A stretch of DNA of 49,716 nt, from the NCBI GenBank assembly GCA_031273325.1, contig JAISSB010000048.1, positions 1 to 49,716 on the forward strand, in the 5' to 3' direction. This document shows, piece after piece, positions 679 through 49,633 of the stretch. Made by a program: the position numbers and the translations under genes. Every line of letters begins with the position of its first letter. The first letter of the stretch is position 1. Origin of the DNA: Treponema sp. (GTDB lineage Bacteria; Spirochaetota; Spirochaetia; Treponematales; Breznakiellaceae). Below the pieces are notes generated by a model, which worked only from the letters and a program-made list of their open reading frames with translations, was not told the DNA's origin and did not search any database.

Positions 679-745
679 AGATCATCTCTCACCTATAGGG
701 AAGATCGTCTCTCACCTACGCGGGAGATCGTCTCTCACCTATAAG
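679..745. repeat. Short tandem repeat, ~23-bp unit (AGATCGTCTCTCACCTAyr.. x3)
   Basis: 'agatc(a/g)tctctcaccta' at 679, 702 and 725, spaced exactly 23 bp. Confidence 0.8.
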
Positions 746-960
746 GGACAGACCTCTGAACTAAACGGGGACAGACCCCAAACTAAACGGGGACAGACCT
801 CGAACTAAAACGGGGACAGACCCCAGACTAAATGGGCAGACCTCAAGCTAAAACAGGAACAGACCTCTAAGCTAAACGGGGACAGACCTCAAGCTAAAAC
901 GGGCAGACCTCTGAGCTAAACAGGGACAGACCCCAAGCAAACAGGGACAGACCCAGACCT
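745..960. repeat. Tandem array of GGGGACAGACC(C/T)C-x-CTAAAC units (20-23 bp)
   Basis: About 9-10 imperfect copies of 'ggggacagacctcaagctaaaac' between two CDSs. Confidence 0.9.
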
Positions 961-13151: not shown

Positions 13152-14105
13152 ATGATTGTGTCACTGATTCATTGGAAAAATACTTATATTCCTGCACTTG
13201 AAACGTTGCTTGAACAGAAAATTTATGAGTGTCATGACAAACAAGAAGCACTTAAAGCATTTGCAGAAGCAGATATTGTCATTACGATTGGGGGCGGGGA
13301 CGGAGAATATGCAATACCGCTTGACGAAGAACTTTTATCGGCCGCTAAAACGTTGCGTTTAGTACTCAGTTTAAGCGCAGGTATTGAAAAATTGCCGCTC
13401 CAAAGCTTAGTTAATAGGGGCATTAAAGTGTGTAATACGCGAGGGGCGCATGGCAGCTCCATTGCAGAATATGTACTTGGGGGAATGCTGGTACTGAGTC
13501 ATCACTATCACACATTTATACGCCGTCAAGAACGGCGTGAATGGCGGTTAATGCTCCACGGTGAAGATATTGAAGGTAAAACATTGTGTGTAATCGGCGC
13601 AGGAAGTATTGGACAAACAATAGGAAGAAAAGCAAAAGCACTCGATATGCGGGTAATCGGCATAAAGCGGCACCCTGAACCTCTTTCTGGTTTTGATGAC
13701 GTATTCGGTATAGACAAGCTCCATGCAGTACTGCGTGAATCAGATTATGTTGTGGTAGCAACCCCCTTAAATAAAGAAACGTACCATTTAATGGGGGCAG
13801 AAGAATTTAAAAACATGCGAAGCAGTGCAGTATTTATCAACATTTCCCGGGGAAACACCGTTGATGAATTAGCATTAGTGCAAGCTCTGGAACAAAAACA
13901 AATTGCAGGCGCTGTTTTAGATGTATTTCAAGTTGAACCATTACCAACAGACAGTCCGTTATGGAGCATGGAAAACGTTTTAATAACTCCGCACAGTGCA
14001 GGTCCGACAAGTAATACCGAAAGAAAAACTATTAAAATACTCTTCGATAATATTATTAACTACACTCACGGACAGGCATTAATAAACGAGATCACAGAAC
14101 TATAA
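13152..14105 (+). CDS. D-isomer specific 2-hydroxyacid dehydrogenase
   Basis: 'GKTLCVIGAGSIGQTIGRKAKALDMRVIG', 'FINISRGNTVDELAL', 'VLDVFQVEPLPTDSPLW', 'ITPHSAG'. Confidence 0.93.
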   Translation: MIVSLIHWKNTYIPALETLLEQKIYECHDKQEALKAFAEADIVITIGGGDGEYAIPLDEELLSAAKTLRLVLSLSAGIEKLPLQSLVNRGIKVCNTRGAHGSSIAEYVLGGMLVLSHHYHTFIRRQERREWRLMLHGEDIEGKTLCVIGAGSIGQTIGRKAKALDMRVIGIKRHPEPLSGFDDVFGIDKLHAVLRESDYVVVATPLNKETYHLMGAEEFKNMRSSAVFINISRGNTVDELALVQALEQKQIAGAVLDVFQVEPLPTDSPLWSMENVLITPHSAGPTSNTERKTIKILFDNIINYTHGQALINEITEL

Positions 14106-14426
14106 AGCAGCACAGGAGCCGTTTAAAATAAGATCACAGAACTATAAAGCAGCATAGGAGACGTTTAAAATAAGATCACAGCATTATAAAGCGGCACAAG
14201 AGACTGTATAACCGAAATCACAGAACTATAAAGCGGTACAAGAGACTCTTAAAATAAAATCATAGTATTATAAAGCGGTACAAAAGACTGTATAAACGAA
14301 ATCACAGAACTATAAAACAGCACAAGAGACGTTTAAAATGAAATCATAGTATTATAAAGTGGCACAAAAGACTGTATAACCAAAATCACAGAACTATAAA
14401 ATAGTACAAGAGCCTTTTAAGAATCT
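14091..14426. repeat. Tandem array, 8 units x exactly 42 bp with an alternating A/B variant pattern
   Basis: Unit starts (atca[c/t]ag...) at 14091, 14133, 14175, 14217, 14259, 14301, 14343, 14385. The first unit includes the stop codon of the 13152-14105 CDS. Confidence 0.97.
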
Positions 14427-16275: not shown

Positions 16276-16470
16276 GTATACTTCTAAAGATTGGTGGTAT
16301 ACTCTTAAAGTCTAGGAGTATACTCCCAAAGATTAGGGGTATACTTTTAAAGTCTAGGAGTATACTCCCAAAGGTTTGGGGTATACTTTTAAAGTCTAGG
16401 AGTATACTCCTAAAGATTGGGGGTATACTTTTAAAAGTTGGTTGTATACTCCCAAGCATTGAGAGTATAC
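16276..16470. repeat. Tandem array with GTATAC recurring 10 times at exactly 21-bp spacing
   Basis: GTATAC at 16276, 16297, 16318, 16339, 16360, 16381, 16402, 16423, 16444, 16465; ends 25 bp before the next start codon. Confidence 0.97.
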
Positions 16471-16495
16471 TATAAAAACGAAGGAGGATAATAGT

Positions 16496-17158
16496 ATGAG
16501 TAATAAGGATTATATCCCGCGGGGTGATGGTCAGTTTTTAGAATGGGCGAGAATTTTAATTGCCTATGTTCTTGCCCATTTAATCGAATTTAAGATTGAT
16601 CAAGCTGCCTTGACCGCTATTCAAACGTTATTCGCTGCGTATGAATCTGCGTATGAGGCAGCAGAAAATCCTAATCGGGGAAAAGTCGATGTGTTGAATA
16701 AGAATGAAACACGGGATGCCTTAAAAACAGCATTGCGGGCTTTTAATAAAGGATTTTTGCTCTATAATCCCGCAGTAACTGATGCAGATAAGAAAAGTAT
16801 GGATTTGCCGCTTCACGATAAGAAGCCGACTCCTCATCCGGCACCAGATACTCACCCTATCATTAGCACAGAAAGTAAAAATCCCTTTGAATTAATACTG
16901 CATATTCATGATTCTGAAAGTGAAAAGCGGGGAAAACCAGATTTTGCGAGCGGTGCGGTACTTTTTTATGTCGTCAGCGATACACCGATTAGCAATCCTG
17001 AAGATTTGCAAAAAACCGAACTGATAACGCGTATGTCCCATACGCTGAATTTTTCTCCTACCGATAGGGGAAAGACGGTCTATATGGCAGGGCGGTGGCA
17101 GAATGCTAAGGGGGATAAGGGCCCCTGGAGCGAAGTATACAGCGCCATTATTCCTTAG
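16496..17158 (+). CDS. Conserved hypothetical protein
   Basis: 220 aa with SD aaggagg; 'YIPRGDGQFLEWARILIAYV..FLLYNPAVTDADKKSMDLPLHD' followed by a Pro-rich linker and a beta-rich C-terminal domain. Confidence 0.8.
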   Translation: MSNKDYIPRGDGQFLEWARILIAYVLAHLIEFKIDQAALTAIQTLFAAYESAYEAAENPNRGKVDVLNKNETRDALKTALRAFNKGFLLYNPAVTDADKKSMDLPLHDKKPTPHPAPDTHPIISTESKNPFELILHIHDSESEKRGKPDFASGAVLFYVVSDTPISNPEDLQKTELITRMSHTLNFSPTDRGKTVYMAGRWQNAKGDKGPWSEVYSAIIP

Positions 17159-21174: not shown

Positions 21175-21951
21175 TCTAAAATGCTTTCACGATTCTCTAA
21201 AGCTCTTTTGCGATTCTCTAAAACTTTTTCATGGTTCTCTAAAGCTCTTTTATGATTCTCTAAGACTTTTTCAGGATTCCCTAAGACTTTTTCAGGATTC
21301 CCTAAAACATTTTTATGATTCCTTAAGACTTTTTCAGGATTCCCTAAGACTTTTTCAGGATTCCCTAAGACTTTTTCAGAACTCCCTAATACTTTTTCAG
21401 GATTCCCTAAAACATTTTCAGGATTCCCTAAGAATTTTTCAGAACTCCCTAAAACATTTTCAGAACTCCCTAAAACATTTTCAGGATTCCCTAAAACATT
21501 TTCAGGATTCCTTAAGACTTTTTCAGGATTCCCTAAAACATTTTCAGGATTCCCTAAGATATTTTCAGGATTCCTTAAGACTTTTTCAGAACTCCCTAAA
21601 ACATTTTTAGGATTCCCTAAAACATTTTCAGGATTCTCTAAAACATTTTAAGGATTCCCTAAGACTTTTTCAGGATTCCCTAAGACTTTTTCAGGATTCC
21701 CTAAGACTTTTTCAGGATTCCCTAAAACATTTTCAGGATTCCCTAAGACTTTTTCAGGATTCCCTAAAGTTTTTTCAGGATTCCCTAAAGTTTTTTCAGG
21801 ATTCCCTAATACTTTTTCAGGATTCCCTAAAACATTTTCAGGATTCCCTAAAACATTTTAAGGATTCCCTAAAACATTTTCATAGCTCTCTAAAATACTT
21901 TCATAATTCTCTAAAGCTCTTTTATGACTCTCTAAAATTCTTTCACCCTTC
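21175..21951. repeat. Tandem array of 37 x 21-bp units (CCTAAGACTTTTTCAGGATTC consensus)
   Basis: First unit starts at 21175 and the last at 21931, exactly 36 x 21 apart; variants include CCTAAAACATTTTCAGGATTC and ..AGAACTC. Confidence 0.97.
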
Positions 21952-21964
21952 TTTTTTATTCTAT

Positions 21965-22258
21965 GGGATCTGTCTCCAAGTTGTAGGGATTTATTCCTAA
22001 TCTGTCAGGGTCTGTTCCTAAGTTATTGGGGTCTGTTTCTAAATTGTCAAGGTCTGTTTCTAAATTGTCAAGGTCTGTTCTTAAGCTGTCAGGGTCTGTC
22101 CCTAAGTTATCAAGGTCTGTCACTAAGTTGTCGGGATCCATCTTTAAGCTGTCGAGGGCTGTTCATAGTTTGTCAGGGTCTGTCACCAAGTTATCGATGT
22201 CTTTCCCTAATATATCGATGTCTGTTCCCAATATGTTGAGGTCTGTCCCTAAGCTTAA
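21965..22258. repeat. Tandem array of 14 x 21-bp units ((A/G)AGGTCTGTTTCTAAATTGTC-like)
   Basis: 14 consecutive 21-bp units can be read without indels; the last unit (22238-22258) contains the stop codon of the minus-strand CDS at 22255. Confidence 0.97.
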
Positions 22259-47324: not shown

Positions 47325-47803
47325 CAGACCATGGATTTAATATTCCGGACGTATGGTTTAATATTCCGGACGCATGATTTAATATTCCGGACGTATGATT
47401 TAATATTCCGGACGCATGATTTAATATTCCGGACATACGGTTTAATCTTCCGGACGTATAGTTTATTCTTCCGGACATACAGTTTAATCTTCCGGATGCA
47501 TGGTTTATTCTTCCGGACGTATGGTTTAATATTCCGGACGCATGGTTTATTTTTCCGGACATACGGTTTAATCTTCCGGACATACGGTTTAATCTTCCGG
47601 ACATACAGTTTAATCTTCCGGACATACAGTTTAATCTTCCGGACATACGGTTTAATCTTCCGGACATACAGTTTATTCTTCCGGACATACGGTTTATTCT
47701 TCCGGACATACAGTTTATTCTTCCGGACATACAGTTTATTCTTCCGGACATACAGTTTATTCTTCCGGACATACAGTTTATTCTTGCAGACCATGGATTT
47801 AAT
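47325..47803. repeat. Tandem array, ~23 x 21-bp units (TTCCGGACATACAGTTTATTC consensus)
   Basis: CCGGAC recurs every 21 bp; both end units contain CAGACCATGGATTTAAT, 462 bp (22 x 21) apart. Confidence 0.97.
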
Positions 47804-47905: not shown

Positions 47906-49633
47906 TCAGCCAGCGCTTGCTGCATCTTGAGTGATGGTAACGGTTTCACTGCCTTTGATTACTTCACTGTCTTCATGGACACCCACGGTGTACGTTGCTT
48001 GATTTGTATCTGCGTTTACAGGAATGGTTACACTAACCGTGATAACACCAGTATCAGAGTCTATTTCAGTAATAGAAATAGTAGTAGTGACGGTTTCTGA
48101 GCCTTTTTTAACAATGAAGTCAGTTGATGCAAGATCAGTAGCCTTAAGCAGCTTGCTTGCATCCGTAAACTCCACTTCTACGTTCCTTCCTGCAGCATCA
48201 ACGTCGCCAACATCTGACCCAGCAGCTACCTCCAGTCTTTGTTTTTGAGTAATGGTAACGATGTCTTCGTTAGAGGCTGCTTTGATTATGCCGCTGTTTG
48301 AAGCGACTTCCACGGTGTATGTTACTGGACTTGTGTCTGCGTTTGGTGGAATGGGTACACTAACCGTGATAACACCCTCAGCACCTACGCTAACAGAAGG
48401 AGTAATATCGCTGCTTGCTGAGTCTTTTTTAACAATGAAGTCGGCTGCTGTAAGATCATCAGTTGTAAGCAGATCGCTTGCATCCGTAAATTTCGCTACT
48501 ACTGTCTGAGCCTTAGCAAGAACACCAATAGTCTTGTCATTTGTCGCAACACTTAACGGCAATTTTGCTTTTTGAGTAATGGTAACGAGGTCTTGGGCAG
48601 TGGCTGCTTTGACTATTTCGCTGGTTGAAGCGACTTCCACGGTGTATTCTACTTCATTTTCGGTTCCGTTTGCGGGAATGGCTGCACTAACCGTGATAAC
48701 ACCATCAGAGTCTATGTCAGTAATAGAAGGAGTAATAGTGGTGTCTGCTGTTCCGCCTTTTTTAACAATGAAGTTAGCTGCTGTAAGATTAGTAGTTGTA
48801 AGCAGCTCGCTTGCATCATTAAACTTCGCTACTACGGTTTTTTGGGCGGCAAGAATAGTAACAGTCCTGTCACTTGTCGCAACACTTAACGGCAATTTTG
48901 CTTTTTGAGTAATGGTAACTTTTGCGTTACCTTTGATTTTGCCGCTGCCCGAAGCAATGGTCACCTCGTACCTTTTTTCCGTGGTTCCGCTGACATTGCT
49001 TGCAAAAGTTATTGGAACGCTTACGATACCGCTGCTGGCAACTTCTATATTAGCAGTAGTAATTGTGGCTGTTCCACCATCAATAGCGGTAACTGCGAAG
49101 TGAGTACCTGTTCGAAGATCAGCACTTGTAAGAGTGCCTGCATTGTTAAATTGAGCTGTTGCTCCTAATGCATTAGCAAGAACAGTAACATTCCCAACCG
49201 CGCCCAATAACTTTCTTCCATCATCTACTTGTTGAATAACGGTAACGGTTGCAGTGCCTTTGATCTTTGTGCTGTCTGGATTGATTTTTACAGTGAACGT
49301 TTTGTTAGCAGCTGTATCATTTACTGCTGTAATCGCTACCGTAACAGTTACAATATCACCGCTAACATCTGGAGCTGTGGTGGTACTAATAGTGGCTCCA
49401 CTCTCAGTGATGGTGAAGTCATCCTTCGTAAGCTCAAGCCCGGTTGCACCTTTAAATTGAGCTGTTGCTACCAGAGTATCAGCATCAACAGTATTGCCGG
49501 TTTGATCTTCGACTGCGCTCAATGTTTTTCGGTTATCTACGACGGTATCATCGTCATTGTCGGAGCATCCAATAAACGCAAAACTCATTGCCACAACAAG
49601 GGTGACAATTCCAAAATAAAGACTCTTTTTCAT
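47906..49633 (-). CDS. Lipoprotein with about five Ig-like/cadherin-like tandem repeats ending in VTITQ(K/D)
   Basis: MKKSLYFGIVTLVVAMSFAFIGC lipobox; repeats delimited by TVTVIQQ, KVTITQK, LVTITQK, IVTITQK, TVTITQD. Confidence 0.82.
   Translation of the reverse strand: MKKSLYFGIVTLVVAMSFAFIGCSDNDDDTVVDNRKTLSAVEDQTGNTVDADTLVATAQFKGATGLELTKDDFTITESGATISTTTAPDVSGDIVTVTVAITAVNDTAANKTFTVKINPDSTKIKGTATVTVIQQVDDGRKLLGAVGNVTVLANALGATAQFNNAGTLTSADLRTGTHFAVTAIDGGTATITTANIEVASSGIVSVPITFASNVSGTTEKRYEVTIASGSGKIKGNAKVTITQKAKLPLSVATSDRTVTILAAQKTVVAKFNDASELLTTTNLTAANFIVKKGGTADTTITPSITDIDSDGVITVSAAIPANGTENEVEYTVEVASTSEIVKAATAQDLVTITQKAKLPLSVATNDKTIGVLAKAQTVVAKFTDASDLLTTDDLTAADFIVKKDSASSDITPSVSVGAEGVITVSVPIPPNADTSPVTYTVEVASNSGIIKAASNEDIVTITQKQRLEVAAGSDVGDVDAAGRNVEVEFTDASKLLKATDLASTDFIVKKGSETVTTTISITEIDSDTGVITVSVTIPVNADTNQATYTVGVHEDSEVIKGSETVTITQDAASAG

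Follow-up and report, generated by a model that had tools for sequence, protein, structure and literature searches.

As a rule, regulatory DNA is recognised by its sequence. Plasmid iterons and ParR-type centromere/operator arrays are made of tandem sites about two helical turns apart, which are bound cooperatively and lie beside the gene of their binding protein, REP/RAYT elements are palindromic intergenic repeats, and in Haemophilus the number of 7-bp promoter repeats at hmw1A and hmw2A reportedly tunes transcription like a rheostat. Rheostat-like tuning by upstream repeat number is also reported for the promoter tract of Helicobacter pylori sabA (PMC4081817). The vlhA genes of Mycoplasma gallisepticum form a large paralogous family in which a GAA tract lies just upstream of each promoter, about 40 nt from the start site; the tracts are of different length in different genes and strains, and a trans-acting factor, HAP, has been proposed (PMC6258824).

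These GAA tracts appear to be the closest functional analogue of the arrays described here, which precede the members of a multicopy gene family with a fibronectin-type-III-like (FN3) domain. Both systems comprise a paralogous family with a tandem-repeat tract upstream of each member, the promoters of the FN3 family being predicted ones. They differ in that a single trinucleotide is common to all vlhA genes, whereas the unit of the FN3 family is 21 bp long, often dyad-symmetric and nearly gene-specific, and the host group, the protein family and the repeat itself are unrelated. The hmw1A/hmw2A and sabA repeats are short and simple and occur at one or two loci, unlike the private 21-bp array carried by each FN3 family member across phyla. 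Iterons and ParR-type arrays share the spacing of about two helical turns, but no protein for replication or partition is present at the FN3 loci, the family protein lacks any recognised DNA-binding fold, and many different arrays are found on one chromosome. Searches of an open-access library brought up no prior description of 21-bp arrays before this family.

The window, that is, the whole stretch of 49,716 nucleotides analysed, belongs to a genome of 1.82 Mb in 103 contigs (G000) and carries at 16276-16471, on the forward strand, an array of ten 21-bp units with the consensus GTATACTCCTAAAGATTAGGA, delimited by repeat and palindrome counts and by TRF. Exact GTATAC hexamers start at 16276, 16297 and so on to 16465, ten in all with every step equal to 21 bp, and the window as a whole contains 29, against an expected 9.6 and a maximum of 18 in shuffled sequences. 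A sequence-only reading of this DNA had reported ten such palindromes phased at exactly 21 bp (16276-16470), two alternating unit types and a last unit lying 25 bp before the coding sequence at 16496. All of this is borne out by the position count, by TRF, which gives period 42 (two 21-bp types in alternation) as well as period 21, and by the ATG at 16496, which begins 25 bp past the end of the last unit. That reading placed TATACT in most units, an understatement, as GTATACT, and hence TATACT, is present in 10/10; its description was correct as far as given but missed the dyad around GTATAC that spans the whole unit, of which this hexamer is only the centre. The unit, GTATAC-TCCTAA-AGA-TTAGGA, has two dyad axes, one at GTATAC and one half a unit off, in TCCTAA-AGA-TTAGGA (centre AAAGATT), and its consensus forms nine of ten possible complementary pairs (p=0.003). 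A Shine-Dalgarno-like AAGGAGG stands at 16481-16487 on the same strand, 8 bp 5' of the ATG.

The gene that follows (16496-17158, forward strand) encodes a 220-aa protein of an unnamed multicopy family with no Pfam or NCBIfam match. An AlphaFold2 model built on 47 sequences (mean pLDDT 92) predicts an N-terminal three-helix bundle with an additional short helix (residues 11-101, encoded at 16526-16798) and a C-terminal FN3-like domain (residues 121-218, encoded at 16856-17149). Structural searches with the model also point to the latter, their matches being FN3 domains with no DNA-binding domain among them, and comparison with the sequences of solved structures (PDB) and with PHROG phage and PADLOC defence families gave no convincing match. 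The protein shows no transposase feature, and no partner or neighbouring gene is conserved at the family loci. Sixteen copies, the window gene and 15 paralogues, are present in G000, and genomes hold up to 38; the family occurs in 31/48 genomes of the window's own taxonomic family and in only 3/247 Spirochaetota genomes of an even draw. Lipoprotein or BspA-like leucine-rich-repeat surface protein genes often lie downstream of family genes (L018, L019, L022, L025, L027), hinting at a possible co-expression with surface proteins.

The window array is not unique: the genome contains further GTATAC arrays and numerous other 21-bp arrays, and nearly every paralogue is preceded by one. In G000 all 16 family members have an upstream array whose period is 21 bp or a multiple of it (a 21n period), with a unit that differs between subfamilies, as in the sense-strand units GTCTCTAGCAACAAGACCCTT (L013), GGCTATAGCCCGAAGATAAAG (L014), TCTGGAATGTATTCCAAGACT (L017) and GTCTTAGACTATAGTCTGGAA (L021); the array of L027 is mixed with GGGGACAGACC repeats. 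In the merged and de-duplicated set, 120/138 distinct family genes have a 21-bp array within 700 bp upstream, with a median of 9 copies, the array ending a median of 79 bp before the start codon. The vlhA-like arrangement of a tandem tract 5' of the members of a paralogous family is thus found here too, with a 21-bp unit that varies from gene to gene in place of the GAA trinucleotide. The association is one-sided: in G000 and 14 related genomes a 21n-period array lies upstream (within 600 bp) of 85/96 genes vs downstream of 7/96, and in a sample of named records upstream of 41/48 vs downstream of 5/48; all these fractions, that of the merged set included, refer to the better-scoring family members, not to a random draw. 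The best autocorrelation lag was 21, 42 or 63 in 119/133 upstream regions. Among the 18/138 genes with no 21-bp array, one (L236) has a 22-bp array; period 22 is seen in few arrays (L236, L283) and is still about two helical turns. Arrays are present at both family genes of G031, a genome closed in one contig, and as 3 x 21 bp before a broken family copy in the single-contig genome G041, which rules out an assembly artefact. This conservation of period and symmetry without conservation of sequence is the larger point, and it is not visible from one window.

The named matches comprise Treponema and other Spirochaetia records as well as Prevotellaceae, Tannerellaceae, Dysgonomonadaceae, Planctomycetaceae and Oscillospiraceae bins, and the isolate Geminisphaera colitermitum TAV2 (Opitutaceae) has two family copies; we take all the named records that carry the family to come from termite guts. 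Some bins, above all the Planctomycetaceae and Oscillospiraceae ones, may be contaminated. The array before an FN3-family gene is a recurring design in termite-gut bacteria of at least four phyla, with the association found in Spirochaetota, Bacteroidota, Verrucomicrobiota and Planctomycetota records. In the family tree most groupings follow phylum, and a Bacteroidota clade with arrays of its own stands apart; the association of array and family is therefore older than recent transfer. A phage or plasmid origin was rejected, as the searches matched no viral contig, phage or plasmid.

The arrays appear to adjoin predicted sigma70-like promoters, either at them or just upstream. When the region from array end to start codon was scanned for sigma70-like matches and scored against shuffles, 23% of family genes had a match above shuffles (p<0.05), the -10 in most cases lying 2-79 bp beyond the array, and about 75% of genes had none better than shuffles. 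In the window the best predicted match, TTGTAT-18 bp-TATACT at 16442-16471 on the forward strand (score 8.6, p=0.016 vs shuffles), is formed by the last two units only. The sequence-only reading had offered a multi-promoter or decoy array as one possible function; with TATACT as its basis it would provide several promoters or a decoy for sigma factors, and the presence of this hexamer throughout the window array agrees with it. This idea loses its ground outside the window, where the family arrays are unrelated in sequence and most unit consensuses lack a -10 hexamer, so that a -35 and -10 pair in each unit is not what is seen, and inside it the best match pairs a TTG -35 with the last unit only; we consider such an array very improbable.

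Its other proposal, a possible cooperative operator, is supported as regards a palindromic array at the DNA level with two-helical-turn spacing in a promoter position, with dyad symmetry over 115 arrays and promoter-like hexamers at or just past the array. The conservation-weighted (soft) dyad score had a mean z of 1.88 +- 0.14 over these arrays, compared with 0.01 for a mirror-repeat control; individually, symmetry reached p<0.05 in 52% of them, about half having no significant symmetry, and a strict test on the consensus alone gave a modest enrichment (6.16 vs 5.36 pairs). The arrays thus resemble cooperative operators, in which dyad-symmetric double-stranded sites recur at integral helical spacing. 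Mismatches in the dyads were about equally often G.T (112) and A.C (128), and there is consequently no RNA-type bias, since RNA hairpins would favour G.T. Variation within arrays has no 3-base periodicity, and reading frames stay open as often on the antisense as on the sense strand. A coding heptapeptide repeat was rejected for the lack of third-position variation, and RNA hairpins for the lack of wobble bias. A transcribed leader, in which the array would act as RNA hairpins or as a repeat peptide, could appeal to the at least one open frame of most arrays, which any period divisible by three gives, but these same observations and the position of the predicted promoters after the array make it exceedingly improbable.

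The sequence of the units changes at about the same rate as the rest of the non-coding leader DNA. A unit is common to about 20% of pairs at 60-80% protein identity and to 78% of pairs above 80%, and unit similarity rises with protein identity (Mantel test, 0/300 permutations), somewhat more with that of the N-terminal half. This correlation, together with the adjacency of array and gene, would suit an orthogonal autoregulation in which each family protein binds the dyad sites of its own upstream array. Such autoregulation is disfavoured because the protein is predicted to fold as a bundle of long helices plus FN3, with no DNA-binding domain in structural searches, and because units switch between near-identical proteins: proteins 92-98% identical can carry different units, and at about 70% identity the units are often unrelated. 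We thus judge it improbable. In three Prevotellaceae paralogues (L211, L216, L217), whose proteins are 92-96% and leaders 86-94% identical, the unit cores are GTAAGTCCACTTAC, GTGAACATGTTCAC and GTAAGCATGCTTAC, the second and third being perfect palindromes with symmetric differences; in these cores the letters have changed and the symmetry is kept. Copy number differs as well, being 7.9, 13.1, 12.6, 7.1 and 10.5 in one subfamily of paralogues 91-96% identical, and is nearly equal in a near-identical pair from two species (L189/L190).

The one-sided association with one family across phyla, the fixed two-turn period, the symmetry and the proximity to promoters together point to a cis element that acts at the DNA level and keeps its geometry, not its sequence. 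The explanation that we favour, tentatively and at slightly less than an even chance, is a structure-conserved, sequence-free promoter-proximal element that probably serves as a rheostat, set by the copy number of two-turn dyad sites that are bound cooperatively. The array would be what the members of this multicopy termite-gut gene family normally carry on their 5' side, each unit forming one two-turn, dyad-symmetric double-stranded site, and the sites would be stacked on one face of the helix, with the end of the stack at a sigma70-type promoter or slightly upstream of it. A DNA-binding protein that forms dimers or oligomers, or a DNA structure driven by the symmetry, would act cooperatively on the stack and so set transcription. 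Slippage or recombination would add or remove units, always by whole two-turn steps, changing the length of the stack while keeping its phase, as in repeat-tract contingency loci. We infer binding, cooperativity, an effect on expression and variation within populations; a rheostat would be the most economical function by analogy with the vlhA GAA tracts. Against this explanation stand the arrays with no significant dyad symmetry, the genes with no promoter match above shuffles or with no 21-bp array, the solo arrays described below, and the nearly equal copy number of L189 and L190. A stronger version, which we regard as doubtful, is a class of bacterial cis element that occurs across phyla in one gut ecosystem along with the FN3 family and in which selection acts on geometry alone (the two-turn period and the dyad axis), the letters being free; a factor or DNA structure would sense its symmetry and phase.

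The strongest rival, though an unlikely one, is that the arrays are non-regulatory minisatellites, palindromic 21-bp units that expand by hairpin-promoted slippage and hitchhike with the family or are tolerated before it. Dyads favour slippage, the units turn over at about the pace of the other leader DNA, and arrays without a family gene (solo arrays) exist. Base rates rest on samples of three genomes, G000 (412 kb), G013 (314 kb) and G031 (400 kb). In G000, 38/47 21n-period arrays are not upstream of a family gene, a count that includes GGGGACAGACC-type arrays, and many of the solo arrays have the same unit types as family arrays and reach 1.4 kb; about half of the G013 arrays are solo, and almost none in G031. 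The 22 classifiable G000 solo arrays lie between co-directional (13), divergent (5) or convergent (4) genes, about as random intergenic placement gives; those between convergent genes serve no promoter there. In the window, a solo array of TTTCAGGATTCCCTAAAACTT, the type found before paralogue L016, lies between convergent genes at 21185-21945 (forward strand) with no family gene, and another, on the reverse strand at 47336-47785 (sense about AAACTGTATGTCCGGAAGATT, the type before paralogue L024), lies 98 bp upstream of an aspartokinase-homoserine dehydrogenase gene. The window unit type itself recurs just after an ssb gene (L159:9735-9951); at L159:8900-9951 ssb is duplicated in tandem; after the first copy come two GTATAC units and a T-run resembling a terminator, and after the second an array of ten units of the window type.

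A truncated family gene follows one of the G000 solo arrays, and two in G013 adjoin family-gene remnants, which the minisatellite explanation can also claim. That solo arrays are simple fossils of lost genes fits these cases and was rejected as a general account, most G000 solo arrays being without a gene remnant. Shared borders are likewise the exception, only two solo arrays having leader sequence in common with a gene-linked array (L155 with L017, L146 with L026); in the first (L155:1787-1946) the following leader is homologous to that of L017 with no family gene after it, and the gene was possibly lost with the leader retained. The minisatellite account leaves unexplained the strong one-sided link to a single gene family in four phyla, the period kept at 21 (rarely 22) while the sequence has turned over completely, and the G031 sample, in which the only non-coding-looking 21-bp array is that at the family gene.

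The recurrence of the unit types of several family genes in long G000 solo arrays also suggests a mobile module, in which arrays would be copied like elements, the gene-linked form being autonomous and the solo arrays non-autonomous, and an IS200-like (Y1) transposase gene (PF01797) ends 27 bp from the solo array L152:14728-14964. Solo arrays have no conserved borders or target-site pattern, however, and the family loci offer neither a constant neighbour nor a transposase-like protein. In REP/RAYT systems the repeat is shared with and adjacent to a Y1 transposase, and for the 21-bp arrays such genes are near few loci. A likeness to REP/RAYT does exist in the same genome, which has palindromic intergenic repeats and the Y1 transposase: the GGGGACAGACC/GGTCTGTCCCC repeats, a separate sequence class with irregular spacing, look like REP/RAYT elements, and the Y1 transposases more plausibly belong to them. 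A mobile module is thus quite improbable. The GGGGACAGACC/GGTCTGTCCCC repeats are abundant in G000 and often abut 21-bp arrays (window 679-954 and 21969-22253; L152:14195-14701, near the Y1 transposase gene).

More than 100 arrays keep a 21-bp period and, on average, dyad symmetry before one family while their sequence is replaced, which, if the arrays are functional, would make them a clear natural case of selection for DNA geometry; in that event they would probably also constitute a new way in which termite-gut symbionts switch expression. This is testable in isolates, G. colitermitum TAV2 having two copies and the single-contig G031 two more, and the arrays provide a first handle on a large unannotated family.

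Other repeats are found near family genes and in the window. Poly-C tracts of about 9-14 occur in the leaders of two subfamilies (L018, L020, L023, L025, L026, L027), some inside a short upstream reading frame, suggesting a classical slipped-strand phase variation besides the arrays; at L027 the family protein could gain a hydrophobic N-terminus by fusion when the tract changes length. Perfect 7-bp tandem repeats in 10-17 copies (TCACAAC, ATCAGGA, CGGCTCA, ACAGGCC, CTCACGA) lie near family genes at L019:1-103, L022:1-103, L024:3193-3263, L070, L075 and L076. In the window, a 42-bp array whose two 21-bp halves are weakly alike (lag-21 identity 0.44) extends at 14091-14420 from the end of a 2-hydroxyacid dehydrogenase gene to 74 bp before an RmuC gene, and a 333-bp tandem repeat is present twice at 48238-48919 within a long coding sequence that lies on the minus strand and has no annotation.
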